Source: Psychromonas sp. 14N.309.X.WAT.B.A12 (GTDB lineage: Bacteria; Pseudomonadota; Gammaproteobacteria; Enterobacterales; Psychromonadaceae). From it: DNA of 64,000 bases. Shown piece by piece: positions 4,651-41,133 of this stretch (position 1 is its first letter; every line of letters begins with the position of its first letter). Under the pieces are notes generated by a model, which was not told the DNA's origin, did not search any database, and saw nothing but the letters and a program-made list of their open reading frames with translations. The stretch is from NCBI RefSeq assembly GCF_030397575.1, contig NZ_JAPNXS010000001.1, positions 310,001-374,000 on the forward strand, written 5' to 3'. Both the position numbers and the translations under genes were made by a program.

Positions 4651-4667
4651 TTAATCTTTAAGTAAGT

Positions 4668-21294: not shown

Positions 21295-21310
21295 TGGCAT
21301 AGTAAATGCT
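21295..21310 (+). promoter_or_regulatory. Sigma-54 (-24/-12) promoter upstream of cynS
   Basis: TGGCAT-N5-ATGCT has the invariant GG (21296-21297) and GC (21308-21309) separated by exactly 10 bp, as sigma-54 promoters require. It points towards cynS, 120 bp before its ATG. The neighbouring sigma-54 activator gene supports it. Confidence 0.7.
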
Positions 21311-21430
21311 ATATCAGTATTGTTAGGTGGAAGTATGAGAAAAATAGTCTTTTGGTATATTTCTCTTTGCACCAATTAAGGGCAAGATTCACTCTGGTTA
21401 ATGCCATTATCATTCAGTTAAGGAAATAAC

Positions 21431-21874: not shown

Positions 21875-22057
21875 GTAGCTTATTGAAGTAGGTAATAGTT
21901 TCGAATTATTGCATTTTTAATAAAAGGGCGACCGATATTGAGAGTTACAGTAAAGACGTAATTGCTCTTTAAAAGGATGTTTGCCAACAGGAAGTTACAT
22001 TAACCCGTAAGTTATTTAGCATATTAAATACTTACCAGAATAAAAGTGAGAAAAACT

Positions 22058-22870
22058 ATGTCTTATTTAGAGCCCGCAGAGTTTGTAACCAAAATGGTTG
22101 ATACTGGGGAATCCAAAGTTTATATGTCGACTAAGGACACCTTAATACGTGCTTTTATGGCGGGTGCCATTTTAGGATTGGCAGCTGTCTTTGCAATTAC
22201 AGTTGCTACTAAAACTGGGAGTCCAATATTAGGCGCTTGTCTATTTCCCGTTGGTTTTATTATGTTGTACTTAATGAAATTTGACCTGTTAACGGGTGTA
22301 TTTACTTTAGTCCCTTTAGCTTTATTAGATAAACGTCCAGGAGTCACTTTCTCAAGTGTTATGCGTAATTGGGGTTTAGTATTTATTGGTAATTTTGCAG
22401 GTGCTATGACAACCGCTTTTATGGTTTCTTTTATATTAACCTACGGTTATGCAACAGATGGCGGCGCATTGGCAGCAAAAGTAAGTGCGATTGGCGAATC
22501 AAGAACGCTAGGTTATCAAGAGCATGGCATTGGTGGATGGTTTACTATTTTTATTCGCGGAATGCTATGTAACTGGATGGTCTCAATGGGTGTAGTTGGT
22601 GCATTAATTTCAACTTCAGCTGGCAGTAAAATGGCTGCGATGTGGATGCCTGTAATGTTATTCTTTTATATGGGGTTTGAGCATTCAATCGTGAATATGT
22701 TTTTATTCCCATTTTCAATGATCATGGGCGGTGATTTTACCGTTTATGATTATTTATTGTGGAATGAGATTCCAACGGTATTAGGTAATTTAGCGGGTGG
22801 TTTACTATTAGTAGGATTACCTTTGTACTTCACGCATGTTAAAACCTCTAAAGCACGTGTTTTAAGTTAA
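22058..22870 (+). CDS. FNT-family formate/nitrite (possibly cyanate) channel
   Basis: A 270-residue six-helix membrane protein of the FocA/NirC family, which moves small monovalent anions. The conserved G-F-E-H-S-x-x-N-M-F motif holding the pore histidine is present near residues 202-211. The first pore helix shows A-F-M-A-G-A-I-L-G-L. I chose ATG 22058 over GTG 22046 because GTGAG lies seven bases before the ATG. It follows cynS by 183 bp on the same strand, and a hairpin ends the unit. The context suggests import of cyanate (or nitrite/bicarbonate) for the cyanase, which is inference. Confidence 0.86.
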   Translation: MSYLEPAEFVTKMVDTGESKVYMSTKDTLIRAFMAGAILGLAAVFAITVATKTGSPILGACLFPVGFIMLYLMKFDLLTGVFTLVPLALLDKRPGVTFSSVMRNWGLVFIGNFAGAMTTAFMVSFILTYGYATDGGALAAKVSAIGESRTLGYQEHGIGGWFTIFIRGMLCNWMVSMGVVGALISTSAGSKMAAMWMPVMLFFYMGFEHSIVNMFLFPFSMIMGGDFTVYDYLLWNEIPTVLGNLAGGLLLVGLPLYFTHVKTSKARVLS

Positions 22871-22928: not shown

Positions 22929-22999
22929 ATACTTTTATATCACTTCATCTAAAATTAACCATTCGAAGCACAATTCACTAAATAATAAGTATCGGTTGA

Positions 23000-23028
23000 T
23001 TGTATAGGGTGTGATACCTGTGTATATT
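23000..23028 (+). promoter_or_regulatory. Candidate sigma-70 promoter of pfaR
   Basis: TTGTAT (23000-23005) and TATATT (23023-23028) are separated by 17 bp, 34 bp before the pfaR start. The match is fair, but such A+T-rich DNA gives many chance hits. Confidence 0.35.
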
Positions 23029-23062: not shown

Positions 23063-23875
23063 TTGAGCGCCAAGCAGCATAAAAACGCAACGACGACCCC
23101 CGAGATAAGAGCTTTTATTCATGACTCAGAGCTGCCGACCGCAGTACTAGCACGTCTGTTAAAAATCTCTGAATCCACCGTACGTAAATGGCGTAAACGG
23201 GAAACCGTTGAAGATGCTTCGCACGTACCAAAACACTTCAAAACGACTCTCTCAGTGCAGCAACAATATGTTGTTGTGCAATTGCGCACTCGATTAATGC
23301 TCTCCTTGGATGATCTGTTACAGGTTTGTCGGCAATTTATTAATGAAAACACCTCTAGGGCGGGTCTACAGCGTTGTTTGAAACGTCATGGTGTGTCTAA
23401 GTTAGCGGATATTGATCCTGCCGGCGAGTTAGTTAAATTAGAGCAGCAAGTCAGTGTTGCTATTAAAGATAACAGTTCAGACCAAGTACTCAATTCAGTG
23501 GTTAGCCCTGAGGCCATGAGCGAAGTACTAAATCAATTACGCAATGAAGCGGCTGAGAAAACCAATAGCAGTCAATTAGCAGATCATGCACGAAGTGCGA
23601 AAACACGTTCACTAACCTGTTCAGATGTAGTGCAAGTAAGTGTGACAACACTGCCTATCTTAGATAAAAAAACAACTAATCAACATCGTTTATTGATTGC
23701 CCATGACCCTGATAGCCAGTGGGTGTATGTCGATCTTTATCAAGACGATGAAGCCGATGCTGCACGACGTTATATGCGTTACGTGTTAAAGCATGCACCA
23801 TTTCATATTCGTCGCTTATTAGCGGCAAATTATAACGAATTTTTGAGCCGATTCCGTTTGCTTAGTGAAGTATAA
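23063..23875 (+). CDS. pfaR: PUFA operon regulator PfaR (IS481-transposase-like)
   Basis: A 270-residue protein directly upstream of pfaA, in the position of the known pfa activator PfaR. An HTH (about 25-46, P-T-A-V-L-A-R-L-L-K-I-S-E-S-T-V) is followed by a segment (80-111) much like IS481 transposases, L-S-L-D-D-L-L and S-R-A-G-L-Q-R-C-L-K-R-H-G-V-S. Residues 187-265 look like a truncated DDE fold whose catalytic Asp positions are Ser193 and Ala255. It is thus probably a DNA-binding regulator derived from a transposase. No ATG fits the N-terminus; a TTG at 23063 is the likely start, and the next Met is at residue 79. Confidence 0.87.
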   Translation: MSAKQHKNATTTPEIRAFIHDSELPTAVLARLLKISESTVRKWRKRETVEDASHVPKHFKTTLSVQQQYVVVQLRTRLMLSLDDLLQVCRQFINENTSRAGLQRCLKRHGVSKLADIDPAGELVKLEQQVSVAIKDNSSDQVLNSVVSPEAMSEVLNQLRNEAAEKTNSSQLADHARSAKTRSLTCSDVVQVSVTTLPILDKKTTNQHRLLIAHDPDSQWVYVDLYQDDEADAARRYMRYVLKHAPFHIRRLLAANYNEFLSRFRLLSEV

Positions 23876-23913
23876 ACACTAGCAAACAGATAGTAATGCC
23901 ATTGGAGAACATA

Positions 23914-26900
23914 ATGTCAAAAAAACAAAACACCAACACAGCGGCTGATAAGCGTATTAATTCACGCTTACAAGAAACGCCAATAGCAATTGTTGGTATG
24001 GCTTCGGTTTTTGCTGAAAGTAAAAATCTAGGACAGTTTTGGGAAACCATAGTTAATTCTGTGAATGGCATTCAAGATGTACCTGAAGATCGCTGGGCTA
24101 TTGATGACTATTACTCTGCAGATAAAAAAGAAGCAGATAAAAGTTATTGTAAACGTGGTGGTTTTTTACCTGAAATTGATTTTGATCCGATGGAATTTGG
24201 TCTTCCACCTAATTTACTAGAATTAACTGATATTACCCAATTAATGGCATTAGTGACTGCACGTGATGTTATTGCTGATGCGGGTTTAAGTGTTGAAGGT
24301 AATGTTGATCGCGATAAAATGGGGATTATCCTAGGGGTTGGTGGCGGCCAAAAACAGGGCGGGCAGTTAATGTCCCGATTGCAAGGTCCTGTACTAGAAA
24401 AGGTGTTAAAAGCATCAGGTGTCAGTGAAGATGATACTAATGTGATCGTGGATAAATTTAAAAAAGCGTATATTCCATGGGAAGAAAACTCATTCCCAGG
24501 TATGTTAGGTAACGTTATTGCTGGACGTATTGCTAATCGTTTCAATCTTGGTGGTACAAACTGTGTGGTTGATGCCGCTTGCGCAGGTTCTTTAGCCGCT
24601 ATTAAAATGGCAGTATCAGACCTATTGGAATACCGCTCAGATATGATGTTATCGGGTGGTATATGTTGTGATAACTCACCATTTATGTACATGTCATTTT
24701 CAAAAACACCAGCATTTACTGATGGTGATTGCATTCGTCCTTTTGATGATAAATCCAATGGTATGATGATTGGTGAAGGTGTGGGTATGATTGCACTTAA
24801 ACGTTTAGAAGATGCTGAACGTGACGGTGACCGAATCTACTCTGTGATCAAAGGTATTGGTAGCTCTTCAGATGGAAAATTTAAATCCATCTATGCGCCG
24901 CGTCCAGAAGGGCAATTAAAAGCACTTAAACGTGCTTATCAAGATGCAGGTTTTGATCCAAAAACATGTGGATTAATTGAAGCGCACGGCACTGGTACTA
25001 AAGCCGGAGATGCGGCAGAGTTTAGAGGTTTAGAGTTATTGTTCAGTGAAAATAATGAACAAAAGCAACACGTGGCATTAGGCTCAGTTAAATCTCAAGT
25101 GGGCCATACTAAAGCGGCGGCAGGCACTGCCGGATTAATTAAAGCAGCACTAGCGTTACACCACAAAGTATTACCTCCGACGATTAATGTTGATCTACCG
25201 AATAAAAATTTAGATATCGAAAATACACCACTTTATATTAATACTGAAACACGTCCTTGGATGCAGCGTGTTGATGGTGTTAAGCGTCAAGCGGGGATCA
25301 GCTCTTTTGGATTTGGTGGCACTAACTTCCATCTAGTATTAGAAGAATACTCACAGCAACATCAACATGCTTATCGATTAAACGAGGTTGCGCAGTCATT
25401 TTTAATTGCCGCTGATAATAAAGCACAGCTAATTGAGATATTAACGGCGCAGCATCAGGCTTTAAAGGTTGGTCAAGACAATCAACCCTATGCTTATAAT
25501 CAATTTATAATTGACTTTCCTGTACGTAAAATTGCTGCTGATCAAGTGCGTTGTGGTTTTGTAGCCAATGACGTTAATCATGCTAAACAGTTATTAACGC
25601 AAGCAATCGATAAACTAACAACAGATCAATCTGAACAATGGTCAATGCCAACGGGTATCTATTACCAACAGCAGGCTATCAATAGTAAAGGTAAAGTGGT
25701 TGCTCTATTTTCAGGTCAAGGGTCCCAATATGTGAACATGGGGCGTGAATTGGTTTGTCATTTCCCAACTATGATGGCCAGTCAAGTAGCCATGGATAAA
25801 CAGTTTGCATTAAGTTCAACGGGTAAGGTAAGTGATGTGCTTTATCCTATTCCAGTATTTGATGCATCTAAAAAAGCGCAACAAGAGCAGACTTTACGAC
25901 TAACAGAATATGCACAACCTGCGATAGGCAGTTTATCAGTTGGCTTATTTAATACATTTAAACAAGCTGGTTTTAAACCTGACTTTACCGCAGGACATAG
26001 CTTCGGTGAGTTAACGGCATTATGGGCAGCAGGTGTGTATTCAGAACATGATTATATGCAACTTGCCATTGCCCGTGGCCAAGCTATGTCAGCACCCAAT
26101 CAAGTAGATTTTGATGCAGGGGCAATGGCTGCTGTTATTGGAGAAGTTGCTTTAGTAGAGATTGAAATTGCGGAGATCGCTGGAGTAAGCATTGCTAATT
26201 ATAATGCTCATAATCAAGCGGTGATTGCTGGTAGTAAAATAGCCATTTTAGATGCGAGTACAAAACTCACTAAACTTGGTTTAAAAGTGATTGAGTTACC
26301 TGTTTCTGCTGCTTTCCACACGCCATTAGTTGAGCATGCTCAGCAACCATTTGCTAAGGCTATTGATCAAGTCAAATTTGCTAAACCAACGATAAATGTG
26401 TTTGCTAATGGTACTGGTGAAGCACACAGTGAGCAGCCGCAAAAGATAAAAGCTGCGCTTAAAGGGCATATTCTAGAATCGGTACAATTCAGTAAACAGA
26501 TTGAGAATTTATACAAGGCTGGTGGTCGTATCTTTGTAGAGTTCGGCCCTAAAAATGTACTTACCGGTTTAGTGGATAATATTCTGCAAGATAAATCAGA
26601 TGTAGTGAGCATTGCGACTAACGGTAATACCAAACAAAGTGCTGATATTCAATTACGTTTAGCCGCTGTGCAATTAGCTGTTTTAGGCGTTGAGCTAGAT
26701 AACATTGACCCTTATTCCGCAGTTAGTCGCCCTACGGTTGCGCCTAAAAAATCACCATTAGCGATGAAATTATCGGGTGCTGCCTATGTCAGTCCTAAAA
26801 CAAAACAGGCTTTCCAAGATGCGTTAACTGACAATTGGAAGATAGGTAACAATCAACAACCTGTCACTGAAGTCAAAGAAGTGATCAAAGAGGTCATTGT

Positions 26901-29900
26901 TGAGAAAGTTGTAGAAAAAATGATTTATGTCGACAGTGAAGGTAAGCCTTTAGCTGATCAATCAGCGGTGGCAACGCAGCCAACAGATACACTAAATACT
27001 CAAATTTCGGCTAATGATATTCAAGATAGTGTTAAGCGGTTAATTGAGCATCAATCACAACTATTATCCGTACATCAAGCGTATTTAGAAGGGCCTAATC
27101 AATATGCAGACACCTTTAAAACGGTATTAACTGCGCAAGCTGGCCAACAAAAATTACCTGAAGGTTTGGATAAAACTTTAAGTATGTACCATGATTTCCA
27201 AACAGAAACATTAAGAGTACATGAGACATACCTGAATAATCAGACCGAAAATATGCAGCATATGCTAAGTAGAGTGTCTGATAATAAAGGGGACAATCCT
27301 CAACAAGTAGCACCAGTTAATGAACTTCAGAAATCCCCTGACTTGCAAAGTGGTAATAAGCCATTAACAACTAATTTGAGTCTACAAGAGCAATTACAGG
27401 CAACACATGACACGGTTAAAGGTGTACAAACTAGTCCTGTCAGAAAAGTACAACAAAATACAGTTGATGACAAAGTGTCGCCACTAAGTGGTGAGGTTGC
27501 TTCAAATCAAGCGATAGCTGATACCATGCTCGCGGTTGTTGCTGATAAAACCGGTTATCCGACAGAGATGCTTGAATTAAGCATGGATATGGAAGCGGAT
27601 TTAGGTATCGATTCAATCAAACGCGTTGAAATCTTAGGGGCCGTGCAAGATCAAGTGACGGATTTACCAGAATTAGACGCTGAGCAACTTGCACAAATGC
27701 GTACGCTTGAAGAAATTATGGTTTACATGAATTCAGTGATGGGCAACACACTGAATAAACCAGCAAGTGTGACAACAGCAAATAACCCCTTTAGTAACAC
27801 AACGCCTAATAGCGTTGACGCTCAATTAATTGAACAAACCATGCTTGCGGTTGTTGCTGATAAAACCGGTTACCCAACAGAGATACTTGAATTAAGCATG
27901 GATATGGAAGCGGATTTAGGTATTGACTCAATCAAACGCGTTGAAATCCTAGGGGCCGTGCAAGATCAAGTGACGGATTTACCAGAATTAGACGCTGAGC
28001 AACTTGCACAAATGCGCACGCTTGAAGAAATTGTGGTTTACATGAATTCAGTGATGGGCGACACACTGAATATGCCAGTCAATGCTGCAACAGAAAATAA
28101 CTCCCTTGGCAACACAACGGCTAATAGCGTTGACGCTCAAGTGATTGAACAAACCATGCTTGCAGTTGTTGCTGATAAAACCGGTTACCCAACAGAGATA
28201 CTTGAATTAAGCATGGATATGGAAGCGGATTTAGGTATCGATTCAATCAAACGCGTTGAAATCCTAGGGGCTGTGCAAGATCAAGTGGCAGACTTACCAG
28301 AATTAGACGCTGAGCAACTTGCACAAATGCGTACGCTTGAAGAAATTGTGGCTTACATGAACTCAGTGATGGGCGTGACTAATGCTAAAACAGTACAAGC
28401 GACTGAAGAGGCACCGCAAACAATAGATGTAGAGCATATCGAACGCACTATGTTGTCAGTTGTGGCTGATAAAACAGGCTATCCAACGGAAATGCTGGAG
28501 TTAAGCATGAATATGGAAGCGGATTTGGGTATAGACTCTATCAAACGTGTAGAAATCCTGGGCGGTGTACAAGACCAAATATCAGCACTTCCTGAGTTAG
28601 ATGCAGAACAATTATCACAAATGTCCACGTTGGCTGAAATTGTTAACTACATGCACTCGGTTCAAGCGGATAATACGTCTGTAATAACCGTTAATACATT
28701 TAGTCATGCGTCATATGTACCATTAACCGAAACCTTTGAACCTGCACCCAGTGCAACGGTGGCAATAAAAAAGCTTTCAGCACTTGAATACGATGACTCA
28801 AGTGTGAAAGGTGAAACCGATGGTAGTAAACAATTATTATTGGTTAATGACGGGCTTGATAGTTGTGTTTTAACTGCTAATGAATTAATAAAAGCTGGAT
28901 GGAAAGTCACTGTTCTAACACCTCACTGGATTAAAGTGAAATTAACCAAGCAGTTTGACCAACAGATCCAACTTGTTGATTTACCATCGCTTGATGAAGC
29001 GATCATTGCAGACATTATGTCTGCTCAACAATGGCAATCTGTTATCTATTTACATCCTAAAACGAATGCACCAGGTATTGATTTTGATGAACAAGCTAAA
29101 CAAGGACTGCAACTGGTGTTTTTGTTGGCAAAGTTATGTAAATTAAACCAATTAAATAATGAAGTCCGTGCATCATTTTTAGTGGTGACACGTCAAGGTG
29201 GCGACTTTGCAACAAACAATTTAGAAAGCAAAGCAGATTTAGTACAGGGTGGTTTATCTGGATTAGTAAAAACCTTAGCGCAAGAGTGGAACAAGGTTTT
29301 CTGTCGTATCGTTGATCTGCCTTGTAAATTTACAACCAGTAAAGTCTCTAAGATAGTCGTGTCTGAGCTTAATGATAAAGCTACTTTGCCTACAGAAGTG
29401 GGTTATAACAGTGAAGGGCGATTAACTTTAGTGGCACAGAAAACCGACAGCTACCAATTAACTGATGGTCAGTCGATTAATCAAGAGTCTGTTTTCTTGG
29501 TTAGTGGTGGTGCAAAAGGGGTGACAGCACATTGTGTTATCGAACTTGCTAAGCAGCATCAATCTAAATTTATTTTATTGGGTCGTTCGCAGTATCAAGC
29601 TGATGAAGGGGCCTGGTCAATGGGAATAGACACTGACGTTGATCTTAAAAAAGCTGCCATGCAACATTTGTTGAATACAGGTCAAAAACCAAACCCAAAA
29701 TCAGTGAAACAGTTAATTAACACTGTATTAGCTAACCGTGAGATTAAGCAAACCTTACATGCTATTTCGTTAGCTGGTGGGGTGGCTGAATATGTTGCGG
29801 CAGATGTGTGTGATAAACAAGCATTACAGACAGCAGTCGCTCCGATTACCGCCTTGTGGGGGAGTATTACTGGGGTTATTCATGGTGCAGGTGTATTAGC

Positions 29901-31200
29901 GGATAAATTAATTGAAGATAAGACATTAAGCGAGTTTGAACAGGTTTATAGCACTAAAATTGATGGATTAGCGGCTTTGTTGTCTTGTTGCGAAATGGAC
30001 AAGTTAACGCATCTTGCACTATTCTCTTCGGCAGCAGGTTTCTATGGTAATCCAGCACAATCTGATTACGCGATTGCTAACGAAATTTTGAATAAAACCG
30101 CTTACCGCTTTAAAGCTTTGTACCCAGCAGTACAAGTGTTGAGTTTTAACTGGGGGCCTTGGGACGGTGGTATGGTCACAGCAGAGTTAAAACATATGTT
30201 TAATCAGCGTGGTGTGTACATTATTCCAGTTGAATCGGGTGCTAAATTGTTTGCTAGTGAGCTTGCAGCAGCAGATAACCGCTGCGTACAGGTTGTGGTT
30301 GGCACAGATATGTCTGGCTCTGATAATGAACCTGAGTCGATAAAGGTTGATGGTCAAATTATCAAGGTATTTAATCATCAAGAAAGCATGCTGTTATCTG
30401 ATCATCAAATCGATGGCCAGCCTGTCTTACCAACAGTATGTGCAATGGCATGGTTGAAATCAGCCTGTGAACAACAGTACCCTGATTATCAATACCAAGG
30501 TGTTAAAGATTTTAAATTGTTTAAAGGCGTTGTGTTCGATGGGGCACATGCGGAACAATTTATGCTGGACACTAAACTAGTAGAGCGATCTGACACACAA
30601 TTAAATGTAGAAGTATTGGTAAGTAGCAAAACGGCACAGGGCAAATTGGTTTATCATTACCAGGGAATAGTGACCTTGGTTAAACCATTGGATGGCGGAT
30701 TGTCATTGAAAGAGCACCAGACAATATTGCCTGAATTTGTTAAAAAACAATCCCAACAAGCCGCTGAATTATATGCTGACGGCAGCTTGTTCCATGGTCA
30801 AAGCTTACAAGGTATTCAACATATTCATCAATTGGATGAAACTGGTTTACTACTTGAGTGCGCTATTGAAATGGCAGCAAACCAAGGTAACGGAGAGTTT
30901 GATCTCAATGAGACTAATGTGGCTGCTAATGATTTAGTCTATCAAGCCTTATTAGTCTGGACCAGCAAACAGTTAGGGACTGGTAGCTTACCAACCAGTA
31001 CAGGAAGCTGGGATGTGTTTCGTGAAGTTAAATTAGGTGAGCACTTCTTTATTAAGCTAATCGTGACTAAACAGCAAGGACAAAGCGTATTTGGTGATTT
31101 ACTATTGATTGATCAAGCGAATAAAGTGATTAGTCAGATAAGCGCTGCGGAAGTAACTTGTAGCCCGAGCTTATCAGAGTTATTTAAGGCCAGCGCTTAA
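23914..31200 (+). CDS. pfaA: PUFA synthase subunit PfaA (KS-MAT-4xACP-KR-DH)
   Basis: A 2428-residue multidomain synthase subunit that elongates malonyl units into omega-3 PUFA. Domains in order: ketosynthase (about 25-470; Cys223, His358, His398), malonyl/acyl transferase (about 590-890; Ser696 in G-H-S-F-G-E), a coiled Glu/Val/Lys linker, four ACPs with phosphopantetheine serines Ser1234, Ser1339, Ser1444 and Ser1542 (each L-G-I-D-S), a ketoreductase (about 1750-2120), and a PKS-type dehydratase-like end with H-x3-G-x4-P at His2164. ATG 23914 is chosen over ATG 23896 for its GGAGA site. It is 38 bp after pfaR and 2 bp before pfaB. Confidence 0.96.
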   Translation: MSKKQNTNTAADKRINSRLQETPIAIVGMASVFAESKNLGQFWETIVNSVNGIQDVPEDRWAIDDYYSADKKEADKSYCKRGGFLPEIDFDPMEFGLPPNLLELTDITQLMALVTARDVIADAGLSVEGNVDRDKMGIILGVGGGQKQGGQLMSRLQGPVLEKVLKASGVSEDDTNVIVDKFKKAYIPWEENSFPGMLGNVIAGRIANRFNLGGTNCVVDAACAGSLAAIKMAVSDLLEYRSDMMLSGGICCDNSPFMYMSFSKTPAFTDGDCIRPFDDKSNGMMIGEGVGMIALKRLEDAERDGDRIYSVIKGIGSSSDGKFKSIYAPRPEGQLKALKRAYQDAGFDPKTCGLIEAHGTGTKAGDAAEFRGLELLFSENNEQKQHVALGSVKSQVGHTKAAAGTAGLIKAALALHHKVLPPTINVDLPNKNLDIENTPLYINTETRPWMQRVDGVKRQAGISSFGFGGTNFHLVLEEYSQQHQHAYRLNEVAQSFLIAADNKAQLIEILTAQHQALKVGQDNQPYAYNQFIIDFPVRKIAADQVRCGFVANDVNHAKQLLTQAIDKLTTDQSEQWSMPTGIYYQQQAINSKGKVVALFSGQGSQYVNMGRELVCHFPTMMASQVAMDKQFALSSTGKVSDVLYPIPVFDASKKAQQEQTLRLTEYAQPAIGSLSVGLFNTFKQAGFKPDFTAGHSFGELTALWAAGVYSEHDYMQLAIARGQAMSAPNQVDFDAGAMAAVIGEVALVEIEIAEIAGVSIANYNAHNQAVIAGSKIAILDASTKLTKLGLKVIELPVSAAFHTPLVEHAQQPFAKAIDQVKFAKPTINVFANGTGEAHSEQPQKIKAALKGHILESVQFSKQIENLYKAGGRIFVEFGPKNVLTGLVDNILQDKSDVVSIATNGNTKQSADIQLRLAAVQLAVLGVELDNIDPYSAVSRPTVAPKKSPLAMKLSGAAYVSPKTKQAFQDALTDNWKIGNNQQPVTEVKEVIKEVIVEKVVEKMIYVDSEGKPLADQSAVATQPTDTLNTQISANDIQDSVKRLIEHQSQLLSVHQAYLEGPNQYADTFKTVLTAQAGQQKLPEGLDKTLSMYHDFQTETLRVHETYLNNQTENMQHMLSRVSDNKGDNPQQVAPVNELQKSPDLQSGNKPLTTNLSLQEQLQATHDTVKGVQTSPVRKVQQNTVDDKVSPLSGEVASNQAIADTMLAVVADKTGYPTEMLELSMDMEADLGIDSIKRVEILGAVQDQVTDLPELDAEQLAQMRTLEEIMVYMNSVMGNTLNKPASVTTANNPFSNTTPNSVDAQLIEQTMLAVVADKTGYPTEILELSMDMEADLGIDSIKRVEILGAVQDQVTDLPELDAEQLAQMRTLEEIVVYMNSVMGDTLNMPVNAATENNSLGNTTANSVDAQVIEQTMLAVVADKTGYPTEILELSMDMEADLGIDSIKRVEILGAVQDQVADLPELDAEQLAQMRTLEEIVAYMNSVMGVTNAKTVQATEEAPQTIDVEHIERTMLSVVADKTGYPTEMLELSMNMEADLGIDSIKRVEILGGVQDQISALPELDAEQLSQMSTLAEIVNYMHSVQADNTSVITVNTFSHASYVPLTETFEPAPSATVAIKKLSALEYDDSSVKGETDGSKQLLLVNDGLDSCVLTANELIKAGWKVTVLTPHWIKVKLTKQFDQQIQLVDLPSLDEAIIADIMSAQQWQSVIYLHPKTNAPGIDFDEQAKQGLQLVFLLAKLCKLNQLNNEVRASFLVVTRQGGDFATNNLESKADLVQGGLSGLVKTLAQEWNKVFCRIVDLPCKFTTSKVSKIVVSELNDKATLPTEVGYNSEGRLTLVAQKTDSYQLTDGQSINQESVFLVSGGAKGVTAHCVIELAKQHQSKFILLGRSQYQADEGAWSMGIDTDVDLKKAAMQHLLNTGQKPNPKSVKQLINTVLANREIKQTLHAISLAGGVAEYVAADVCDKQALQTAVAPITALWGSITGVIHGAGVLADKLIEDKTLSEFEQVYSTKIDGLAALLSCCEMDKLTHLALFSSAAGFYGNPAQSDYAIANEILNKTAYRFKALYPAVQVLSFNWGPWDGGMVTAELKHMFNQRGVYIIPVESGAKLFASELAAADNRCVQVVVGTDMSGSDNEPESIKVDGQIIKVFNHQESMLLSDHQIDGQPVLPTVCAMAWLKSACEQQYPDYQYQGVKDFKLFKGVVFDGAHAEQFMLDTKLVERSDTQLNVEVLVSSKTAQGKLVYHYQGIVTLVKPLDGGLSLKEHQTILPEFVKKQSQQAAELYADGSLFHGQSLQGIQHIHQLDETGLLLECAIEMAANQGNGEFDLNETNVAANDLVYQALLVWTSKQLGTGSLPTSTGSWDVFREVKLGEHFFIKLIVTKQQGQSVFGDLLLIDQANKVISQISAAEVTCSPSLSELFKASA
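27526..28665 (+). repeat. Tandem ACP-coding repeats in pfaA
   Basis: Four direct repeats each encode one acyl carrier protein domain. The first three have an exact 315-bp period (equivalent ATG codons at 27526, 27841 and 28156) and are nearly identical in DNA through the L-G-I-D-S-I-K-R region. The fourth begins 294 bp later (28450) and has clearly diverged. The inter-ACP linkers also resemble each other in copies 1-3, implying recent duplication or gene conversion. Confidence 0.93.
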
Positions 31201-31202
31201 TC

Positions 31203-33698
31203 ATGTTAGCGGTATTGGGCATTGAGGTAAACATTAGCTCAAATAGCAATGAGCAGATTGCTATTGATGCATTTGATTACTATTTATACCAAGGTTTGAA
31301 AATAGATACTCGACCTGAACCCCGTGCTGATAAGTTGATTTCGGCACTGAATGTATTAAGTGACAAACTATTAGTGAACAATCATCTTAATCGTTCACAG
31401 GTTAAAGTGGTTATCTGTAATGCTAAAAACGATAACATTCAATCATTTACAAATACATTTTCAGATGTACTTTATTGTGAATCACTTAGTGATGCCTTGA
31501 ATGTTTGTTCTCAGGTGTCCGTTGAGCAATCTAAAGCAACTATACTAATGAGTGTTGATGGTCGCGATTTAAATGCTTGTGCTGCTATTTTAATTAGCAC
31601 GCAACATGCATTTCAAGATGTTAATTCACAATTAAGTCAGTGCCATTGTTATGCTTATATTAATGCGCAAAGTATCGTGAATAGTGCGTTTGATGCAACA
31701 GCGAAAAGCCAACTAATTGAACAGCATATTTATGATTTTTTCGTTCGTAATAGTTCAAATTACGAGCAAATCGAATCAATCATTATCAATCAATCCATGT
31801 CGTCGATTTCAGCTGACGAACATGCGCAACACTGCTTATCGCTAAGTTATATAGATGGGCAGCAAAGCGCCTCTACAGATAAATGCACACTGTTAACTAG
31901 TATCGATTGTTATGATAGTGAAGATGCTGACTTTATGGCCTTGCTTAGCCTAATTTCAACTGTGCTATGTGTCGATCAACAATATCGCTTAGGTTATTGT
32001 GGTGATTTGTTATCAAGATCGGAGCCTACTGACTCAATCGCTGAAAAATGCGCCGATTTACCTTATTATTTATTATCTGAATCAACAAGTTATTTACCTC
32101 AATGCGCTAATCAAATAAGGCAGTTGGTATTGAGCTTTGTAGCAGAGCATTCACATCAATTAGTATTAGTGTCTAATAGTGATTCCTCTAATAACAAGCA
32201 AATTGAGCCTAATTACAACAATGGTTTCCTAGCGCAACAAAAGATGAAACCAATTATATTTAAAAGTACTTCAGTACAACAATTAATTGAAGCGTTACAC
32301 TGCTGTGAACAATCTATTTCTCGAACCGCACAGAGCTTTACACAATTTAGCGAAAATCATCTTAGACATGGTCACTTTAAACACCAAAGTCTGCAATTTA
32401 ACCAAAATCAACAAGGTTATTATTGCTTAGTCTTATTAGCTGATTGTTTTGAACAGCTAATTGCACAAATAGTATTAGCTTGTAATGGACTACCAAAAGC
32501 AATTAGTAATAAACAAGTCTGGAAAACCCCGCTGGGCAGTTATTGTAGTGGTCACTTGGTTGAAGAAAATCAGTATAAAAAGCCACTCAGTTTTGTCTAT
32601 CCAGGTGTGGGTGCTTTATATGTCAATATGGGAAAAGATCTATTACGTTTATTCCCGCATTCGCATCAAGCACTAAACCTGATGAGCTCTGATTTATCAC
32701 GTAGCTTACAAGATCTATTGATCACACCTAGGCACCTAAAGGTTAGTGACGAGCATCCCCTTCAAGACCAACAAAATTTAAGACGAAGTTTGGCAAATAT
32801 TGCTGAAGCAGGTGTTAGTTATGCCTATTTACTTACCCATATATTTCAATGTGGACTGTCCTTAAATGCGAGCAGTGCAGCAGGGTATAGTATGGGAGAA
32901 GTGAGTATGTTTGCCGCACTAGGTTGCTGGAAAAACCCAGATTTATTGAGCGAACGATTACGTCAAAGCCCTATTTTTACTGAGCAATTAGCGGGGCCTT
33001 TAAAGCGCCTGGATCTGGCTTGGGGTGAAGCAAAAAATGGTAATGAAAATGCATGGGAGTCATTTCATATTAAAGTCGGGTTAATGCAGGTCAACGCTAT
33101 TATTGCTGAATACCCGCGCGTTTACATTACTATTCGTAACACGCCTGAAAGCTTAGTGATTGCAGGTGAACCCAAGCAATGTTTAGCGCTAGCTAAGCAG
33201 TTAGGGGTGAGGGCAATTGCATTGAATGTACCTAATATTATTCATTGTGAATTATCTCGGAGTGAATATCAGCGAATGCAATCGATGTACTCGTTACCTG
33301 TCCAGCAAAAATTAGCTTGTCAGCTATTTTCTACTTCTTGTTATTTACCTGTACCCATCACTGAAAAAGCGATCGCCGTTAGTATCAGCAAATGCCTAAC
33401 CGAGTTTGTCGATTTTCCACGTTTAATTAAAAATATTTATGCTACTGGAGAACGTGTGTTTATTGAAATGGGGGCAGGAAAGTCGTTAAGCACATGGATT
33501 GAAAGGATTTTAAAGAGTAATCAAGGTTCTGTAACCTGTTTGTCAGTAAATCAGAAAAATTTAGACGATTATACTGCAATTCTCAAAACTGTGGCGACAT
33601 TAGTCAGTCTGGGTTATCCAGTGAATTTACAGCCTTTTTATAACGGAACGCTAGTGCGTCCGGTGAATAAAATAGCTGAATCCGTATTAGTATCATAG
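31203..33698 (+). CDS. pfaB: PUFA synthase subunit PfaB (acyltransferase)
   Basis: An 831-residue subunit with one recognisable acyltransferase domain in its C-terminal half. The nucleophile motif G-Y-S-M-G-E contains Ser563. The N-terminal 450 residues resemble a highly degenerate ketosynthase-like region with no catalytic motif. Published work links PfaB to the choice between EPA and DHA as final product. The ATG lies 2 bp after the pfaA stop, so translation is probably coupled. At 831 residues it is longer than the roughly 750-residue PfaB I remember from EPA-producing Shewanella. Confidence 0.92.
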   Translation: MLAVLGIEVNISSNSNEQIAIDAFDYYLYQGLKIDTRPEPRADKLISALNVLSDKLLVNNHLNRSQVKVVICNAKNDNIQSFTNTFSDVLYCESLSDALNVCSQVSVEQSKATILMSVDGRDLNACAAILISTQHAFQDVNSQLSQCHCYAYINAQSIVNSAFDATAKSQLIEQHIYDFFVRNSSNYEQIESIIINQSMSSISADEHAQHCLSLSYIDGQQSASTDKCTLLTSIDCYDSEDADFMALLSLISTVLCVDQQYRLGYCGDLLSRSEPTDSIAEKCADLPYYLLSESTSYLPQCANQIRQLVLSFVAEHSHQLVLVSNSDSSNNKQIEPNYNNGFLAQQKMKPIIFKSTSVQQLIEALHCCEQSISRTAQSFTQFSENHLRHGHFKHQSLQFNQNQQGYYCLVLLADCFEQLIAQIVLACNGLPKAISNKQVWKTPLGSYCSGHLVEENQYKKPLSFVYPGVGALYVNMGKDLLRLFPHSHQALNLMSSDLSRSLQDLLITPRHLKVSDEHPLQDQQNLRRSLANIAEAGVSYAYLLTHIFQCGLSLNASSAAGYSMGEVSMFAALGCWKNPDLLSERLRQSPIFTEQLAGPLKRLDLAWGEAKNGNENAWESFHIKVGLMQVNAIIAEYPRVYITIRNTPESLVIAGEPKQCLALAKQLGVRAIALNVPNIIHCELSRSEYQRMQSMYSLPVQQKLACQLFSTSCYLPVPITEKAIAVSISKCLTEFVDFPRLIKNIYATGERVFIEMGAGKSLSTWIERILKSNQGSVTCLSVNQKNLDDYTAILKTVATLVSLGYPVNLQPFYNGTLVRPVNKIAESVLVS

Positions 33699-33707: not shown

Positions 33708-36700
33708 ATGGAAAACATTGCCATTGTTGGTATCGCAAATCTATTTCCAGGCTCAAGTGCGCCAGAAGAGTTTTGGCAACAATTATTACAAAAACAAGAT
33801 AATCGCACAGCCATTACAGAGCATGAGTTAGGTGTTAAACCAGAGCAGTACTTAGGTAAAAAGGGCGACAACGATAAATATTACTGTCTATATGGCGGTT
33901 ATGTTCGTGACTTCGAGTTTGATGCTGAGGAGTTTTTACCAGCTACAGATTCATCCTTTAGTGTTGGTGACTTGCACCAATTGGATGATTTGCATCAATG
34001 GTCTCTTTACGTGACTAAACGTGCCTTGCAAGATGCTGGTTATTGGCAAAGTGAAAAATTGAAGCAGTGTGGTTTAATTTTAGGTAATTTATCATTCCCA
34101 ACAAAACGCTCTAATCATCTGTTTTTGGAATCTTATCGCCGAGTAGTTGAATTAGCTTTACAAGAAACCCTTCATCCTAAATTCCAACTGTCGGCGTTTG
34201 CAGAACAGCAAAAAGTAAAACCGGAGAATGCCCTAGTAGGCGGCTATCCAGCCGCTTTATTAGCACAAGTTAATGGCTTAGGTGGTCAATACTTTGCGTT
34301 AGATGCTGCCTGTGCATCATCTTGTTACAGTGTCAAATTAGCCTGTGATTATTTACACACAGGAAAAGCAGATATGATGCTAGCTGGAGCGGTATCAGCA
34401 GCGGATTCATTATTTGTAAATATGGGATTTTCTATTTTCCAAGCCTTTCCAGAAAACAACCGCCACGCGCCATTTGATAAGGATTCTCAGGGGTTATTTG
34501 CAGCACAAGGTGCCGGTATGATGGTGCTTAAGCGACATAGTGATGCTATACGTGATGGGGATAAGATCCATGCCGTCATTAAAGGTGGTGCGTTAACTAA
34601 TGATGGAAAAGGGGAGTTTGTATTAAGTCCTAATAGCAAAGGACAAGTACTAGCATATCAAGAGGCTTACCGTAATGCCGAGGTTGATCCTAGACAAGTA
34701 GATTACATTGAATGTCATGCAACGGGGACACCTAAAGGTGATAAAGTTGAGCTTAGTTCGATGGAACAATACTTTAGCGAATATCAACATAAGCCCTTAC
34801 TTGGCTCTGCTAAATCAAACTTAGGGCATTTGTTGACCGCTGCAGGCATGCCGGGTATGACGAAAGCTATTTATGCTCTAAATAATGCGCTTATTCCGGC
34901 AACCATCAATGTGGATAATGCGATAAGCACACAAAAGGGTTATTTTTCAGCAACCCAAATTCCAACGCAAACCGTGGAGTGGCCGAAAACTGCTCACCAA
35001 AGAACAGCGGGGGTTAGCGTATTTGGGTTTGGTGGAAGTAATGCTCACTTGGTGCTACAACCAGGTAATAGTGAGTATGTTGAAAACACACAGCCAATCA
35101 ATCAAGTAGAAAAACTAGCTATAGTTGGAATGGATTGTCACTTTGGGCAAGTTGATAACATGCTGGCTTATCAGGAAGCGATTAACAACAAACAAGGCTG
35201 TTTCAGTGTTTTACCAACACAGCGTTGGCAGGGAATTGAAAAACAATCTTCAGTATTGAATCAAATTGGTCTAAACAATGCGCCTAAGGGTAATTATATT
35301 AGCCAGTTCGATATCGATTTTTTGCGTTTTAAAATACCGCCCAATGAGCAAGATAGTTTAATCGCACAGCAATTATTAATGATGAAAGTGGCCGATAATG
35401 CAGCAAGAGACGCAGGCTTAGTTGCGGGTGGAAAAGTAGCAGTATTAGTGGCTATGGGATTGGAGTTAGATCTTCATCAGTATCGCGGCCGAGTTAATTT
35501 AGCAACTCAAATTGAACACAGTCTTGAGCAGATTGGGGTTGAATTAACTGAGCAACAACAGTCGCAATTGATTGAAATTAGTAAACAAAGTATTAATGAT
35601 CCTGCACAGTTAAACCAATATACCAGTTTTATTGGTAATATTATGGCGTCACGTATTTCTGCGTTATGGGATTTTAGTGGACCTGCTTTTACCGTTTCTA
35701 GTGAAGAAAACTCAGTTTATAAATGTGTGGATATTGCTGATAATTTATTAAAAACCTCTGATATTGAGGCAGTGATTATTGCTAGTGTAGATCTTGCTGG
35801 TAGTTTTGAAAATATCAGTCTTCGCCAACAGTTTTTACCTGTCTCTGAACAAGCGAAAGTTGCTGTAACAGCTAGGCAACAATCACAGTGGTTAGTTGGT
35901 GAAGGTGCCGGAGCATTTGTTGTCAAAGCCAGTGGTCAGGTTAAATCAGAGCAAGTCTACGCAAATATTGATGCTTGTTTGTTTGCTAATCATAGTGACC
36001 CATTTAATCAAGCACAGCTAATTAATGCTACCTTGCAACAAGCCAAAATCACTGCACAGGATATTTGCCAAGTTGAAACCTTTGCTGTTGGTGATACAGA
36101 ACAACTCGCTAACGAGCATGATACATTAGCACAAGCTTACCCAACTGCTGCCTTTGTATCCTCTAAGCAGTATGTTGGTCATTGCTACAATGCATCAGGT
36201 ATGGCGAGTTTATTGTCTAGTGTTATTGCGTTACATAGTCACCAAGTTAAAGTGACTGATAACCAAAACAACAAGTATGTAGCAGTGCATGGTTTAGGGC
36301 AAGATATGAGCGTTGCTCACTTGATTTTGTCTAATACACAAGCAGACAAAATGGTCAGCCTGTTACCGCAAGTTAAAACTAAATTAAGTTTAATGAAAAC
36401 AGTGACTTTAGGTGGTAAATCTATCTTTAATGCAATACATGAGTTAAGAGATAGTGCTGAAATACAAACTATACAAGAACAGTTTATTAAACATTTTACC
36501 CCTGCCACAGTACAGCCAATTAAGCAGCATCAGCGCGTGCAGAATACTGCATTGCAAAACAGCTCTGTAATGGATAAAACACAAGAAGCACCAATGAATA
36601 ATAAGCCAATGACCATGACACAACAATCAGGTGAAATAGTACAAACTCAGGTGAGTGAGCAGATCTGCCAACAACATCAAACCCATCAAGCTTTCTTACG

Positions 36701-39482
36701 CCATCGTTTTATGGCGGAGAAACACATTGCCCGTTTGATTAAATTGCAATCTCAACTAACACAGCCGAGCCCCTTCACTGAACATAACTCAAATCATGAT
36801 AGTTTGGAGAGCGATTCGTCAATAAAGGCGTTAATACCTGGGTTAATCAATATCAAAGGACAAAACGGTTATACCTATCCACCTTTGCAGTTAATTGAAC
36901 AATATAATCAACCAAACAAAGTGATTTTCGATACGGCTCAACTAGTGGAATTTGCTGAAGGAGATATTGGCAATGTATTTGGTGACCAGTATCGTATTAT
37001 CGATAGCTACCCAAGACGAGTCCGTTTACCAACCACAGATTATTTGTTAGTTAGCCGTGTGACTGATTTACAAGCAACAACAAATCAATACAAAAAATCT
37101 TCAATGACCACTGAGTATGATATTCCCATGGATGCTCCTTTTTTAATAGATGGGCAAATTCCTTGGTCGGTGTCAGTTGAATCAGGGCAGTGTGATTTAA
37201 TGCTTATTGCTTATATCGGTATCGACTTTCAAAATAAAGGTGAGCGTGTTTACCGCTTGTTAGATTGTGAATTGACCTTTTTAGAAGAGATGGCCTTTGG
37301 TGGTGAGACATTGCGTTATGAAATCCATATCGATTCTTATGCCAAGAACGGCGAGCAGTTATTATTCTTCTTCCATTACGATTGTTATGTTGGGGATAAA
37401 AAAGTACTTATTATGCGTAATGGTTGTGCTGGTTTCTTTACCGATGAGGAGCTCGCTGATGGCAAGGGGGTGATTAGTACCGCGCATGATCAGGCGCAGT
37501 TAGATAAAGCACAAAAGAGTCGATTTACTCCGTTAATTAAAAACACTCAGACCCAATATAATTACCATGATATGTTAAAACTGGTTGATGGTGATATTGC
37601 TGGATGTTTTGGTCAAGATTACGATCAACAAGGTCGAAACCCATCTTTAAAATTTTCTTCTGAAAAATTCTTAATGATTGAAAGGGTTACCAAAATAGAT
37701 CCACAGGGTGGACATTGGGGATTGGGATTATTAGAAGGGCAAAAGACGTTAGCGCCTGAGCATTGGTATTTCCCGTGTCACTTTAAAGATGATCAAGTAA
37801 TGGCTGGCTCATTAATGTCTGAAGGTTGCGGGCAGATGGCAATGTTCTTTATGCTTTGGTTAGGCATGAATAGTCAGGTCAATAATGCACGTTTCCAACC
37901 TATGCCAGGAGAAGCTCAAACGGTACGTTGTCGTGGTCAAGTACGTCCACAACATAATATCTTAACTTACCGTATGGAAGTAACAGCAATAGGTATGTCA
38001 CCACGTCCATTTATCAAAGCTAATATTGATATTATATTAGATGGCAAAGTCGTGGTTGACTTCAAAAACTTATGTGTTGAGATTAAAGAACAAGATCAAG
38101 ATAGTCCGTTCCCAGTGACGTTACCGGACACTGTGCAGCAACTTAATCACTTAGGTGACGATAAAGTGGTGTCACAAAGTGGCCAATCATTATTGGATGA
38201 AAGGGGTATCAATCCTTTTGCCCATATCGAGCGCCCATTAATGCGCGTCGAATCAGACCTTACTGCACCTACCAATAAAGGCGTGGTACCGATTAAACAC
38301 TTTACAGCGCCATTTGTAGAACAACAAAATCGTACTCCTGATACTGTGCCTTTTACCCCTTGGCATTTATTTGAATTTGCTACGGGTGATATTAGCCAAT
38401 GTTTTGGCCCTGAATTTTCTGTGTATCAAGGTCGCACTCCGCCCCGTACTCCTTGTGGTGATCTACAGGTAGTTACGCAGGTCACTGAAGTGACAGGCCA
38501 GCGTATGGATTTTAAAACACCATCAAGTTGTATTGCAGAATATGTTGTACCTGAAGACGCCTGGTATTTTACTAAAAATAGTGTAGAAAATTGGATGCCG
38601 TATTCATTGTTAATGGAGATTGCTTTACAACCTAATGGTTTTATTTCTGCTTACATGGGAACGACATTAAAATATCCTGAAAAAGATTTATATTTCCGTA
38701 ACCTAGATGGCCATGGAGAGATAGTAAATAGCATTGATTTACGGGGGAAAACCATTGTAAATAAATCAGTATTATTATCGACCAGTATGGCGGGTGGTGC
38801 GATTATTCAAAGTTTTAGTTTTGAATTAAGTGTGGAAGGACTATGTATCTACCGTGGTGGTGCTGTATTTGGTTACTTCAGTGCTGACTCATTGACGAAT
38901 CAATTGGGCATTGATAATGGACAAATTACTGAGCCTTGGTTTGTTACTAACAACACACCTGCAACGCAATTAACCCAGTTAGATTTGACTAATCAACAAT
39001 CAAGCTTGTTTGTTTTAAACCCCGCCAAACCTGCTTATCGTTTAGCGGGTGGGCAGTTAAATTTTGTAGATAAAGTAACTATAGTGGAAGGTGGTGGTGA
39101 CCATCAAATTGCCTATGTATATGGTCAACGTACCATAGACGCAAGCGATTGGTTCTTTCGTTACCATTTTCACCAGGATCCAGTGATGCCTGGCTCTTTA
39201 GGTGTAGAAGCTATTATTGAGTTGTTACAATGTTATGCATTACAAAATGATTTGGGACAACAGTTTACTAACCCTCGTTTTATTGCACCAGAAACAAAAG
39301 TAGCTTGGAAGTATCGAGGTCAAATAACCCCATTAAATAAACAAATGAGCTTAGATGTTCATATTAAACAGATTATCAGAAATGCGTCAGAAGTACGTAT
39401 TATAGGTGATGCAAATTTATCTAAAGATGGATTACGTATTTACCAAGTTGAAGATATCGTGCTGAGTATTATAGAGGCGTAA
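33708..39482 (+). CDS. pfaC: PUFA synthase subunit PfaC (KS-CLF-DH-DH)
   Basis: A 1924-residue subunit. Domains in order: ketosynthase (about 1-455; Cys202 in D-A-A-C-A-S-S, then E-C-H-A-T-G-T and K-S-N-L-G-H), a chain-length-factor-like KS (about 465-880) that lacks the active cysteine (V-S-S-E-E-N-S at the equivalent place), and two FabA-like dehydratase units, each a double hotdog. The dehydratase histidines are His1358 (C-H-F-x-x-D) and His1820 (Y-H-F-x-x-D-P-V-M-P-G). These domains set the double bonds of the PUFA chain. It is 9 bp after pfaB with a GAGAGT ribosome site. Confidence 0.96.
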   Translation: MENIAIVGIANLFPGSSAPEEFWQQLLQKQDNRTAITEHELGVKPEQYLGKKGDNDKYYCLYGGYVRDFEFDAEEFLPATDSSFSVGDLHQLDDLHQWSLYVTKRALQDAGYWQSEKLKQCGLILGNLSFPTKRSNHLFLESYRRVVELALQETLHPKFQLSAFAEQQKVKPENALVGGYPAALLAQVNGLGGQYFALDAACASSCYSVKLACDYLHTGKADMMLAGAVSAADSLFVNMGFSIFQAFPENNRHAPFDKDSQGLFAAQGAGMMVLKRHSDAIRDGDKIHAVIKGGALTNDGKGEFVLSPNSKGQVLAYQEAYRNAEVDPRQVDYIECHATGTPKGDKVELSSMEQYFSEYQHKPLLGSAKSNLGHLLTAAGMPGMTKAIYALNNALIPATINVDNAISTQKGYFSATQIPTQTVEWPKTAHQRTAGVSVFGFGGSNAHLVLQPGNSEYVENTQPINQVEKLAIVGMDCHFGQVDNMLAYQEAINNKQGCFSVLPTQRWQGIEKQSSVLNQIGLNNAPKGNYISQFDIDFLRFKIPPNEQDSLIAQQLLMMKVADNAARDAGLVAGGKVAVLVAMGLELDLHQYRGRVNLATQIEHSLEQIGVELTEQQQSQLIEISKQSINDPAQLNQYTSFIGNIMASRISALWDFSGPAFTVSSEENSVYKCVDIADNLLKTSDIEAVIIASVDLAGSFENISLRQQFLPVSEQAKVAVTARQQSQWLVGEGAGAFVVKASGQVKSEQVYANIDACLFANHSDPFNQAQLINATLQQAKITAQDICQVETFAVGDTEQLANEHDTLAQAYPTAAFVSSKQYVGHCYNASGMASLLSSVIALHSHQVKVTDNQNNKYVAVHGLGQDMSVAHLILSNTQADKMVSLLPQVKTKLSLMKTVTLGGKSIFNAIHELRDSAEIQTIQEQFIKHFTPATVQPIKQHQRVQNTALQNSSVMDKTQEAPMNNKPMTMTQQSGEIVQTQVSEQICQQHQTHQAFLRHRFMAEKHIARLIKLQSQLTQPSPFTEHNSNHDSLESDSSIKALIPGLINIKGQNGYTYPPLQLIEQYNQPNKVIFDTAQLVEFAEGDIGNVFGDQYRIIDSYPRRVRLPTTDYLLVSRVTDLQATTNQYKKSSMTTEYDIPMDAPFLIDGQIPWSVSVESGQCDLMLIAYIGIDFQNKGERVYRLLDCELTFLEEMAFGGETLRYEIHIDSYAKNGEQLLFFFHYDCYVGDKKVLIMRNGCAGFFTDEELADGKGVISTAHDQAQLDKAQKSRFTPLIKNTQTQYNYHDMLKLVDGDIAGCFGQDYDQQGRNPSLKFSSEKFLMIERVTKIDPQGGHWGLGLLEGQKTLAPEHWYFPCHFKDDQVMAGSLMSEGCGQMAMFFMLWLGMNSQVNNARFQPMPGEAQTVRCRGQVRPQHNILTYRMEVTAIGMSPRPFIKANIDIILDGKVVVDFKNLCVEIKEQDQDSPFPVTLPDTVQQLNHLGDDKVVSQSGQSLLDERGINPFAHIERPLMRVESDLTAPTNKGVVPIKHFTAPFVEQQNRTPDTVPFTPWHLFEFATGDISQCFGPEFSVYQGRTPPRTPCGDLQVVTQVTEVTGQRMDFKTPSSCIAEYVVPEDAWYFTKNSVENWMPYSLLMEIALQPNGFISAYMGTTLKYPEKDLYFRNLDGHGEIVNSIDLRGKTIVNKSVLLSTSMAGGAIIQSFSFELSVEGLCIYRGGAVFGYFSADSLTNQLGIDNGQITEPWFVTNNTPATQLTQLDLTNQQSSLFVLNPAKPAYRLAGGQLNFVDKVTIVEGGGDHQIAYVYGQRTIDASDWFFRYHFHQDPVMPGSLGVEAIIELLQCYALQNDLGQQFTNPRFIAPETKVAWKYRGQITPLNKQMSLDVHIKQIIRNASEVRIIGDANLSKDGLRIYQVEDIVLSIIEA

Positions 39483-39492: not shown

Positions 39493-41133
39493 ATGACACA
39501 AGCAAGCAAAAACACATTACTTGAAGCTAATGCTAACACCATAGATTGGAACTGGGCAGTGGCTGAAAATACCTTACAACATCAAGATGAAAGTATTAAA
39601 AGCGCATTATTAGCGATAAATAAACCACTTTACCTTGCGCAAACAGAGCAGGGGATAGGAGTTTGTCATCATATTTCTGGCGAATCGGAGCAACAATCGA
39701 CTAAGCCGGTGATTGGCTTTGCGCAAGCGTTAACACCAGAGCAATTGGGGAGTGAACAATTTAAGCAAGCGCATGGTGTTAAGTATGCGTATCATGGTGG
39801 GGCAATGGCGAATGGTATCGCTTCTGTAGAGCTAGTGATTGCGTTGGGTAAAGCGGGTATGTTGTGTTCATTTGGTGCTGCAGGTTTAGTTCCCGATGTG
39901 ATTGAAGCATCTATTAAACGTATTCAACAGGCATTACCAAATGGTCCTTTTGCGGTGAATTTAATTCATGCGCCAAGTGAAGAAGCCCTAGAGTCTGGTG
40001 CTGTTGAACGTTTTCTAAAACTAGGTGTTAATACCGTTGAAGCTTCAGCTTTCTTGGCATTAACTCAACATATCGTGCATTACCGTGTTGCAGGATTATC
40101 ACAAAACCCCGATGGTTCGGTGAACATTAACAATAAAGTCATTGCAAAAGTTTCACGCACGGAAGTCGCAGAACGCTTCATGTCGCCACCGCCACAGAAG
40201 CTTTTAGATAAGTTACTTGCCGCAGGTAAGATCACTCCTCTGCAAGCTGAGTTAGCTTTAAAAGTGCCTATGGCCGATGATATTACTGCTGAAGCCGATT
40301 CAGGTGGGCATACTGATAATCGTCCGTTTTTGACTTTATTACCGACCATCATTAAGCAACGCGACCAGTTACAAGCTAAATATAATTATGCCGTACCGCT
40401 TCGTGTTGGCGCAGGTGGCGGTATTGGTACTCCTGAATCAGCAATTGCTGCATTTAACATGGGAGCTGCTTACATTGTATTAGGTTCGGTAAATCAAGCT
40501 TGTGTGGAAGCAGGTGCTTCTGAATATACTCGTAAATTATTAGCTAATATTGAGATGGCAGATGTGACCATGGCTCCTGCGGCTGATATGTTTGAAATGG
40601 GAGTAAAGTTACAAGTGGTTAAGCGTGGGTCGATGTTTGCGATGCGCGCTAACAAATTGTATGAACTGTATAGCCAATATCCAAGTATCGAGGCGATACC
40701 AAGTGTAGAGCGTGAAAAAATAGAAAAGCAGATATTCCGTCAGAATTTGGATCAGGTTTGGCAAACCACCATTGCGTTTTTCCATGAACGCGATCCCGCT
40801 ATGTTAGCAAGAGCGAAAAATGATCCGAAACGTAAAATGGCATTAATTTTCCGCTGGTATTTAGGGTTATCTTCTCGTTGGTCAAACATAGGTGAAGTAG
40901 GCCGAGAGATGGATTACCAAATCTGGGCAGGACCAAGTTTAGGAGCCTTTAACAGCTGGGTTAAACACACCTATTTAGCTAATTATGAACAACGTAAAGC
41001 AGTCGATGTTGCCTTACATTTGTTAACCGGTGCAGTATACCTTGCACGCATTAATCAACTGAAATTACAAGGGATTAACATCCATAATAGTTTACTAAAT
41101 TATCAGCCTGACACGACACTTTTAGCAAAATAA
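39493..41133 (+). CDS. pfaD: PUFA synthase enoyl reductase PfaD
   Basis: A 546-residue flavin (FMN) TIM-barrel enoyl reductase related to 2-nitropropane dioxygenases. It is the trans-acting reductase of the PUFA synthase. Family motifs include F-G-A-A-G-L-V-P (about 120-127) and the FMN-phosphate loop G-A-G-G-G-I-G-T-P near 310-318, followed by G-A-A-Y-I-V-L-G-S. Length fits known PfaD proteins (about 540). It starts 10 bp after pfaC and is the last subunit gene, but two VF530-type genes and an acetyltransferase follow closely. Confidence 0.95.
   Translation: MTQASKNTLLEANANTIDWNWAVAENTLQHQDESIKSALLAINKPLYLAQTEQGIGVCHHISGESEQQSTKPVIGFAQALTPEQLGSEQFKQAHGVKYAYHGGAMANGIASVELVIALGKAGMLCSFGAAGLVPDVIEASIKRIQQALPNGPFAVNLIHAPSEEALESGAVERFLKLGVNTVEASAFLALTQHIVHYRVAGLSQNPDGSVNINNKVIAKVSRTEVAERFMSPPPQKLLDKLLAAGKITPLQAELALKVPMADDITAEADSGGHTDNRPFLTLLPTIIKQRDQLQAKYNYAVPLRVGAGGGIGTPESAIAAFNMGAAYIVLGSVNQACVEAGASEYTRKLLANIEMADVTMAPAADMFEMGVKLQVVKRGSMFAMRANKLYELYSQYPSIEAIPSVEREKIEKQIFRQNLDQVWQTTIAFFHERDPAMLARAKNDPKRKMALIFRWYLGLSSRWSNIGEVGREMDYQIWAGPSLGAFNSWVKHTYLANYEQRKAVDVALHLLTGAVYLARINQLKLQGINIHNSLLNYQPDTTLLAK

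Follow-up and report, generated by a model that had tools for sequence, protein, structure and literature searches.

In the window, by which we mean the whole 64,000-nucleotide stretch of Psychromonas DNA analysed here, the pfaRABCD operon is headed by a gene, pfaR, whose product is probably a dead IS481-type transposase that has kept part of a terminal inverted repeat (TIR) as an operator, through which it would control its own operon. This reading draws on sequence comparisons, in which descent from IS481, catalytic loss, a TIR-like block upstream of the gene and the co-occurrence of that block with pfaR are all apparent; from these, we infer binding of the block by PfaR, the assignment of a promoter and a direction of regulation. 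PfaR is a putative activator of the pfa genes. Its gene (23063..23875, plus strand; assigned from the open reading frame list, profile, tree and residues) has a TTG start and encodes 270 amino acids. After a gap of 20 bp come, on the same strand, pfaA (23896..31200; open reading frame and profile), pfaB (31203..33698; TIGR02816), a pfaC-like gene (33708..39482; so named from its place in the operon and the presence of ketosynthase and FabA-type domains) and pfaD (39493..41133; TIGR02814). The translation of PfaA contains four tandem acyl-carrier-type repeats (LGIDSIKRVEILG), as counted by eye, and the region upstream of pfaR (19233-22870) encodes a sigma-54-dependent regulator (minus strand), a cyanase and a formate/nitrite-type channel.

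The pfaR DNA is present as one copy in its own genome. Across the order, 57 of 295 genomes of six family labels match PfaR, and 49 of these were counted as carrying it; in the other eight (G015, G112, G113, G166, G188, G208, G216 and G274), the match is to an IS copy or to a different dead protein, and they were excluded. The first-pass annotation had described the position of pfaR as fixed, and this was confirmed, as pfaA adjoins it in all 51 PfaR loci examined (L001-L040 and L082-L092, several genomes being counted twice).

An origin of PfaR from an IS481-type transposase, as that annotation had proposed, is supported by several kinds of sequence comparison. In a profile search, NF033577 (the NCBIfam model of the IS481 transposase) matched residues 19-265 with E=1.1e-22 and 80.9 bits, a significant family similarity that lies below the curated cut-off of 224 bits. 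Elsewhere in the same genome, NF033577 matched once (L042, C43:13791-14144; E=1.3e-8, profile positions 146-248), again below the cut-off. When 23 PfaR proteins, picked as representatives from the 51 loci with near-copies and others omitted, were aligned profile to profile with nine intact-type IS rows (hhalign), the N-terminal half gave E=2.3e-54, and the C-terminal domain alone matched the intact-type IS core with a probability of 98.6% (P=8e-15). Furthermore, the 23 proteins form one clade (support 100/100) inside a group containing intact elements. A Pfam profile search gave no rve match to PfaR and weak HTH matches, and a phmmer search of PDB sequences gave no match. The AlphaFold model, built with nine Psychromonas PfaR rows, was poor and unusable (mean pLDDT 50.5), and Foldseek returned nothing for it at E<=0.001, the top match, the IS21 transposase IstA, being not significant (E=0.015).

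The similarity to IS481 is unevenly distributed along the protein. The two-HTH DNA-binding region (codons 1-118; 23063..23416) is 40-50% identical to the nine intact-type rows over residues 1-60 and 36-57% over residues 61-118 (45-57% to seven of these), whereas the degenerate RNase H-like domain (codons 185-265; 23615..23857), delimited by profile-profile alignment and identity, is 19-34% identical; the DNA-binding part is therefore the best kept. Residues 80-111 align with the second HTH of the intact-type rows and residues 185-265 with the RNase H-like core, in agreement with the HTH match and the RNase H/DDE outline (residues 187-265) proposed earlier. Besides these two regions, PfaR has retained a linker of its own (codons 119-184; 23417..23614, from the identity comparison), about 66 residues long, which is mostly without an IS counterpart (each of the nine rows aligns with it over 10-16 residues) and may be a module acquired for regulation or for contacts. 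The first reading had PfaR keep only DNA binding; the degenerate RNase H-like domain and this linker are there as well.

In two alignments, Ser193 (codon 23639..23641) and Ala255 (codon 23825..23827) occupy the places of the first and second catalytic Asp, and the protein stops before the Glu, as the first reading of the sequence had it. The loss extends to all 23 representatives, none of which retains the triad: the first Asp is replaced by S, N, Y, K, R, E, A, M, V or L (E in three), the second by A, G, R, K, S or N, and no Glu is aligned at the third position. In the nine intact-type IS rows the DDE triad is present, the Glu being seen in eight and one row being cut by a contig end.

Upstream of pfaR lies a conserved 20-bp block, in the window AGTATCGGTTGATTGTATAG (22988..23007, plus strand), which matrix scans liken to positions 6-25, the inner part, of the IS481 left TIR, and which we propose as the PfaR operator. 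Left ends of IS481 elements of PfaR's group include TGTCATATTTCGGGTGATTGTATAG (G437) and TGTCATGTCCCCGACGATTGCATTG (G383). The ends were fixed in different ways: by seven copies with 6-bp duplications for G554, by alignment of two copies for G015, by contig ends for G383 and G439, by visual recognition of matching 6-bp flanks for G366 and G415, and by likeness to other ends for G516, G437, G364 and G379; candidates with unplaceable ends (such as G502, G510 and G444) were excluded. The G554 element is mobile, each of its seven copies having a 6-bp duplication and TGT...ACA ends, and target duplications of 6 bp are usual for IS481 members (PMC10045372). As G437 was noticed through its match to the pfaR site, results are also given without it.

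A matrix of 12 IS ends (positions 6-25) matched the pfaR consensus site with p=3e-8, or 8e-8 without G437. The window's own site alone gave a modest match (p=2.4e-5, or about 0.015 over 600 positions); among all positions of the 64 kb it ranked second with the 20-bp matrix (third without G437) and fourth with a 25-bp matrix (outside the top six without G437). In a scan of 300 bp upstream with the IS matrix, the best match exceeded that of every one of 100 shuffles in 32 of 42 pfaR rows; it lay at the block in 31 of these and elsewhere in L040. Among the other ten rows (L003, L005, L006, L007, L008, L035, L036, L083, L087 and L088), the site is clearly weak in L008 and situated further upstream in L035, L036 and L087.

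In the reverse comparison, a matrix built from 16 pfaR sites alone, applied to 11 IS481 element loci with 3288-5364 ranked positions each, placed the left TIR first in eight (G015a, G015b, G554, G366, G383, G437, G364 and G379), second in G415, fourth in G516 and 22nd in G439. The geometric mean rank was 1.6, and none of 1000 column-permuted matrices did as well (G015b was omitted from this count). For the seven loci with independently delimited ends (G015a, G015b, G554, G366, G415, G383 and G439), the ranks were 1, 1, 1, 1, 2, 1 and 22. The right end was the first or second match in five loci (G015a, G554, G516, G383 and G415). Matches near +932 to +958 in four elements, which probably reflect a conserved coding stretch, were not taken as sites.

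The block also keeps company with pfaR. The pfaR matrix found its best upstream match on the plus strand in all 42 pfaR rows, 16 of which built the matrix and some of which repeat a genome; in L033, an extra inverted site (17.2 bits) stands beside the plus-strand site (29.2 bits). Allowing up to 3 mismatches, the 22-mer occurs once in the Psychromonas genome, and its reversed control not at all. As counts for a looser 17-mer with 2 mismatches in 15 genomes were similar to those of the reversed-pattern control, that scan was uninformative on further targets. Among 148 genomes, pfaA was found above the cut-off in 35. PfaR is encoded by 23 of these; the 12 lacking it are nine of family f2, two of f21, and G096, where pfaA is split over contigs. 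The TIR-like site was absent from all seven pfaR-less pfa clusters examined (L193-L198 and L201; families f2 and f21). Minus-strand matches in six of these clusters, one of 19.5 bits, lie inside an open frame of 140-186 codons, taken for a thioesterase gene, and were rejected as sites. A block found in every pfaR row, single in the genome and absent from the pfaR-less clusters examined suggests that transposase and binding site were co-opted together, with PfaR as the likely ligand of the 20 bp.

What is left at pfaR falls short of a whole element. The outer TG of the TIR is kept in 0 of 42 pfaR rows, and at pfaR itself we saw no TGT...ACA pair, no multiple copies and no target duplications. 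The earlier statement that no TIRs flank the gene thus holds for a complete pair, and is at odds with the left-TIR-like block at 22988-23007. In their two-HTH and RNase H-like layout, homologous sequence and left-end block, IS481 insertion sequences (NF033577; PMC10045372) are like PfaR, from which they differ in that PfaR has neither triad nor terminal TGT nor visible duplication, no right end was noticed, and the gene is single-copy in a fixed place.

A candidate promoter, assigned by eye, would place the block in a regulatory context. On the plus strand, TTGTAT (23000-23005), 17 bp and TATATT (23023-23028) form a putative promoter (23000..23028) with its -35 inside the block, and rows of Shewanella type, the genus being deduced, have equal spacing and a TAATCT-like -10, also by eye. 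A consensus promoter scan reported for the region only a minus-strand match, and not this plus-strand promoter. The -35 is weak (3/6 consensus bases), and the block would span about -47 to -28 of the presumed start near 23035, centred near -38, which would be the position of a class II activator, although a repressor could also sit there.

We suggest that an IS481-type transposase came to lie at the 5' end of the pfa cluster and became PfaR, losing its catalytic residues and C-terminal part and retaining the two-HTH region. The left element end seems to have been retained, its inner, presumably transposase-binding part surviving as the 20-bp block around the pfaRABCD -35 while the outermost TG decayed. 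PfaR would then most likely bind the block and thereby control its own operon, and in view of the weak -35 and of a block centred near -38, the likeliest mode would be class-II-like activation with autoregulation.

Transposases often repress their own promoter. PfaR might accordingly bind the block as a repressor, any activation being indirect; a protein bound over the -35 could also block RNA polymerase. We consider this rather unlikely, albeit the most substantial of the alternatives, because the weak -35 fits an activator-dependent promoter and PfaR has been called a regulator of the pfa genes (PMC4744452). Improbable, in our judgement, is a reading that keeps PfaR as a dead IS481 transposase and takes the block for an ordinary promoter element or for a site of some other regulator (such as FabR or PfaF), with a likeness to the TIR that is due to chance or unrelated to PfaR binding. 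Since the block does overlap a plausible -35, its conservation is in part that of a promoter; in six Shewanella species, pfaRABCD is a predicted target of FabR (PMC5343134); and the window's own match is modest by itself. Against this reading stand the recovery of IS ends among 3288-5364 positions by the pfaR-only matrix, unequalled by any of 1000 permuted matrices, and the lack of the block in 7/7 of the examined clusters without pfaR. That pfaR is merely a decaying, functionless transposase remnant can practically be dismissed: the catalytic positions and the C-terminal part are indeed gone, but PfaR occurs in 49/295 genomes of six family labels with a conserved HTH region, and pfaA adjoins it in 51/51 loci.

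Part of the preferred reading, that of a dead transposase controlling pfaRABCD through its old TIR, has precedent. In 2016, PfaR was modelled on the Mu transpososome (4FCY), its catalytic residues were found not to be conserved, and the authors considered it a regulator, not an active transposase (PMC4744452); the catalytically dead DDE-fold regulator is therefore already published, with IS481 unnamed in the available text. That account concerns PfaR of Colwellia psychrerythraea 34H, the same gene in the same operon and DDE-like by the 4FCY model, and its accessible portion, unlike the present work, names neither IS481 nor a TIR-like site. A regulator derived from PIF/harbinger (PMC11893794) is likewise transposon-derived, reportedly retains its original DNA-binding preference and acts on nearby genes, but is eukaryotic and belongs to another transposase superfamily.

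Bacteria offer a further parallel. TldR descends from TnpB. The TldR proteins, RNA-guided transcription factors, are likewise bacterial transposon proteins turned regulators after loss of catalysis (PMC13418256), but they are RNA-guided relatives of TnpB, unlike a DDE transposase whose operator is its own TIR. In titles and the beginnings of abstracts, we found no bacterial DDE transposase kept as a regulator together with its TIR; as subscription papers lay mostly outside this search, the link between the PfaR site and the TIR is likely, rather than certain, to be new. If true, it would explain the origin of a dedicated regulator of the well-studied marine omega-3 pathway, and 22988-23007 offers an exact 20-bp target for testing. 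It also points, in general, to a single-step origin of new bacterial regulons: a transposase already binds specific DNA, and a cognate site lies in its element next to a promoter, so that once catalysis is lost, regulator and operator remain as a matched pair.

A second dead IS481 family raises the question of whether this has happened more than once. Among 246 genomes of G166's family, 25 gave a match (24 once L188, an intact element by its residues, is set aside), as did 3 of 140 genomes of the family of G274; the members lie at loci L079-L081, L168-L187, L075-L077 and L191. In 18 of 27 that were examined, the triad is complete in none, with an Asp at the first place in five and at the second in one, and no Glu. 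All 21 rows of one type adjoin a PTS EIIC gene and the others an M17 peptidase gene; where longer stretches are available, Asparaginase_2 lies between or beside the PTS EIIC and Peptidase_M17 genes. By eye, an intergenic block like AATCTCATATGATTrGTTAT is present in 21/21 PTS-linked rows and was not seen in the six other rows (L075, L076, L077, L186, L187 and L191).

A matrix of this second block ranked the left TIR first in G015a, G015b and G516, third in G554, fifth in G437 and G379, seventh in G364, ninth in G366, 22nd in G383, 25th in G439 and 71st in G415, a geometric mean of 5.6 that none of 1000 permuted matrices equalled. With the IS matrix, 13 of the 21 PTS-linked rows have their best match on the conserved block. 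For the seven dead rows L075-L081, this matrix gave no significant upstream match, with 19 to 51 of 100 shuffles as good. The TIR case for this family depends on the reverse matrix. In the best tree, PfaR groups with the other dead proteins (91/87, or 92/78 without L078, with a long-branch warning on the first tree), and trees keeping PfaR or the other dead group with intact elements were not rejected (p-AU 0.361 and 0.36). We see roughly an even chance that IS481 has given rise to operon-specific regulators at least twice in Gammaproteobacteria, in PfaR and in the PTS - Asparaginase_2 - M17 peptidase family, each time by joint co-option of transposase and inner TIR. In that case, a transposon would bring in regulator and operator as a matched set in a single step. 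L078 itself (2612-3514, minus strand), a single row on a long branch, encodes an IS481-like protein in which no triad aligns, and lies immediately behind the gene of a Ser/Thr-type protein kinase. Finally, one member of the second family, in G725 (L175), has an internal TGA.
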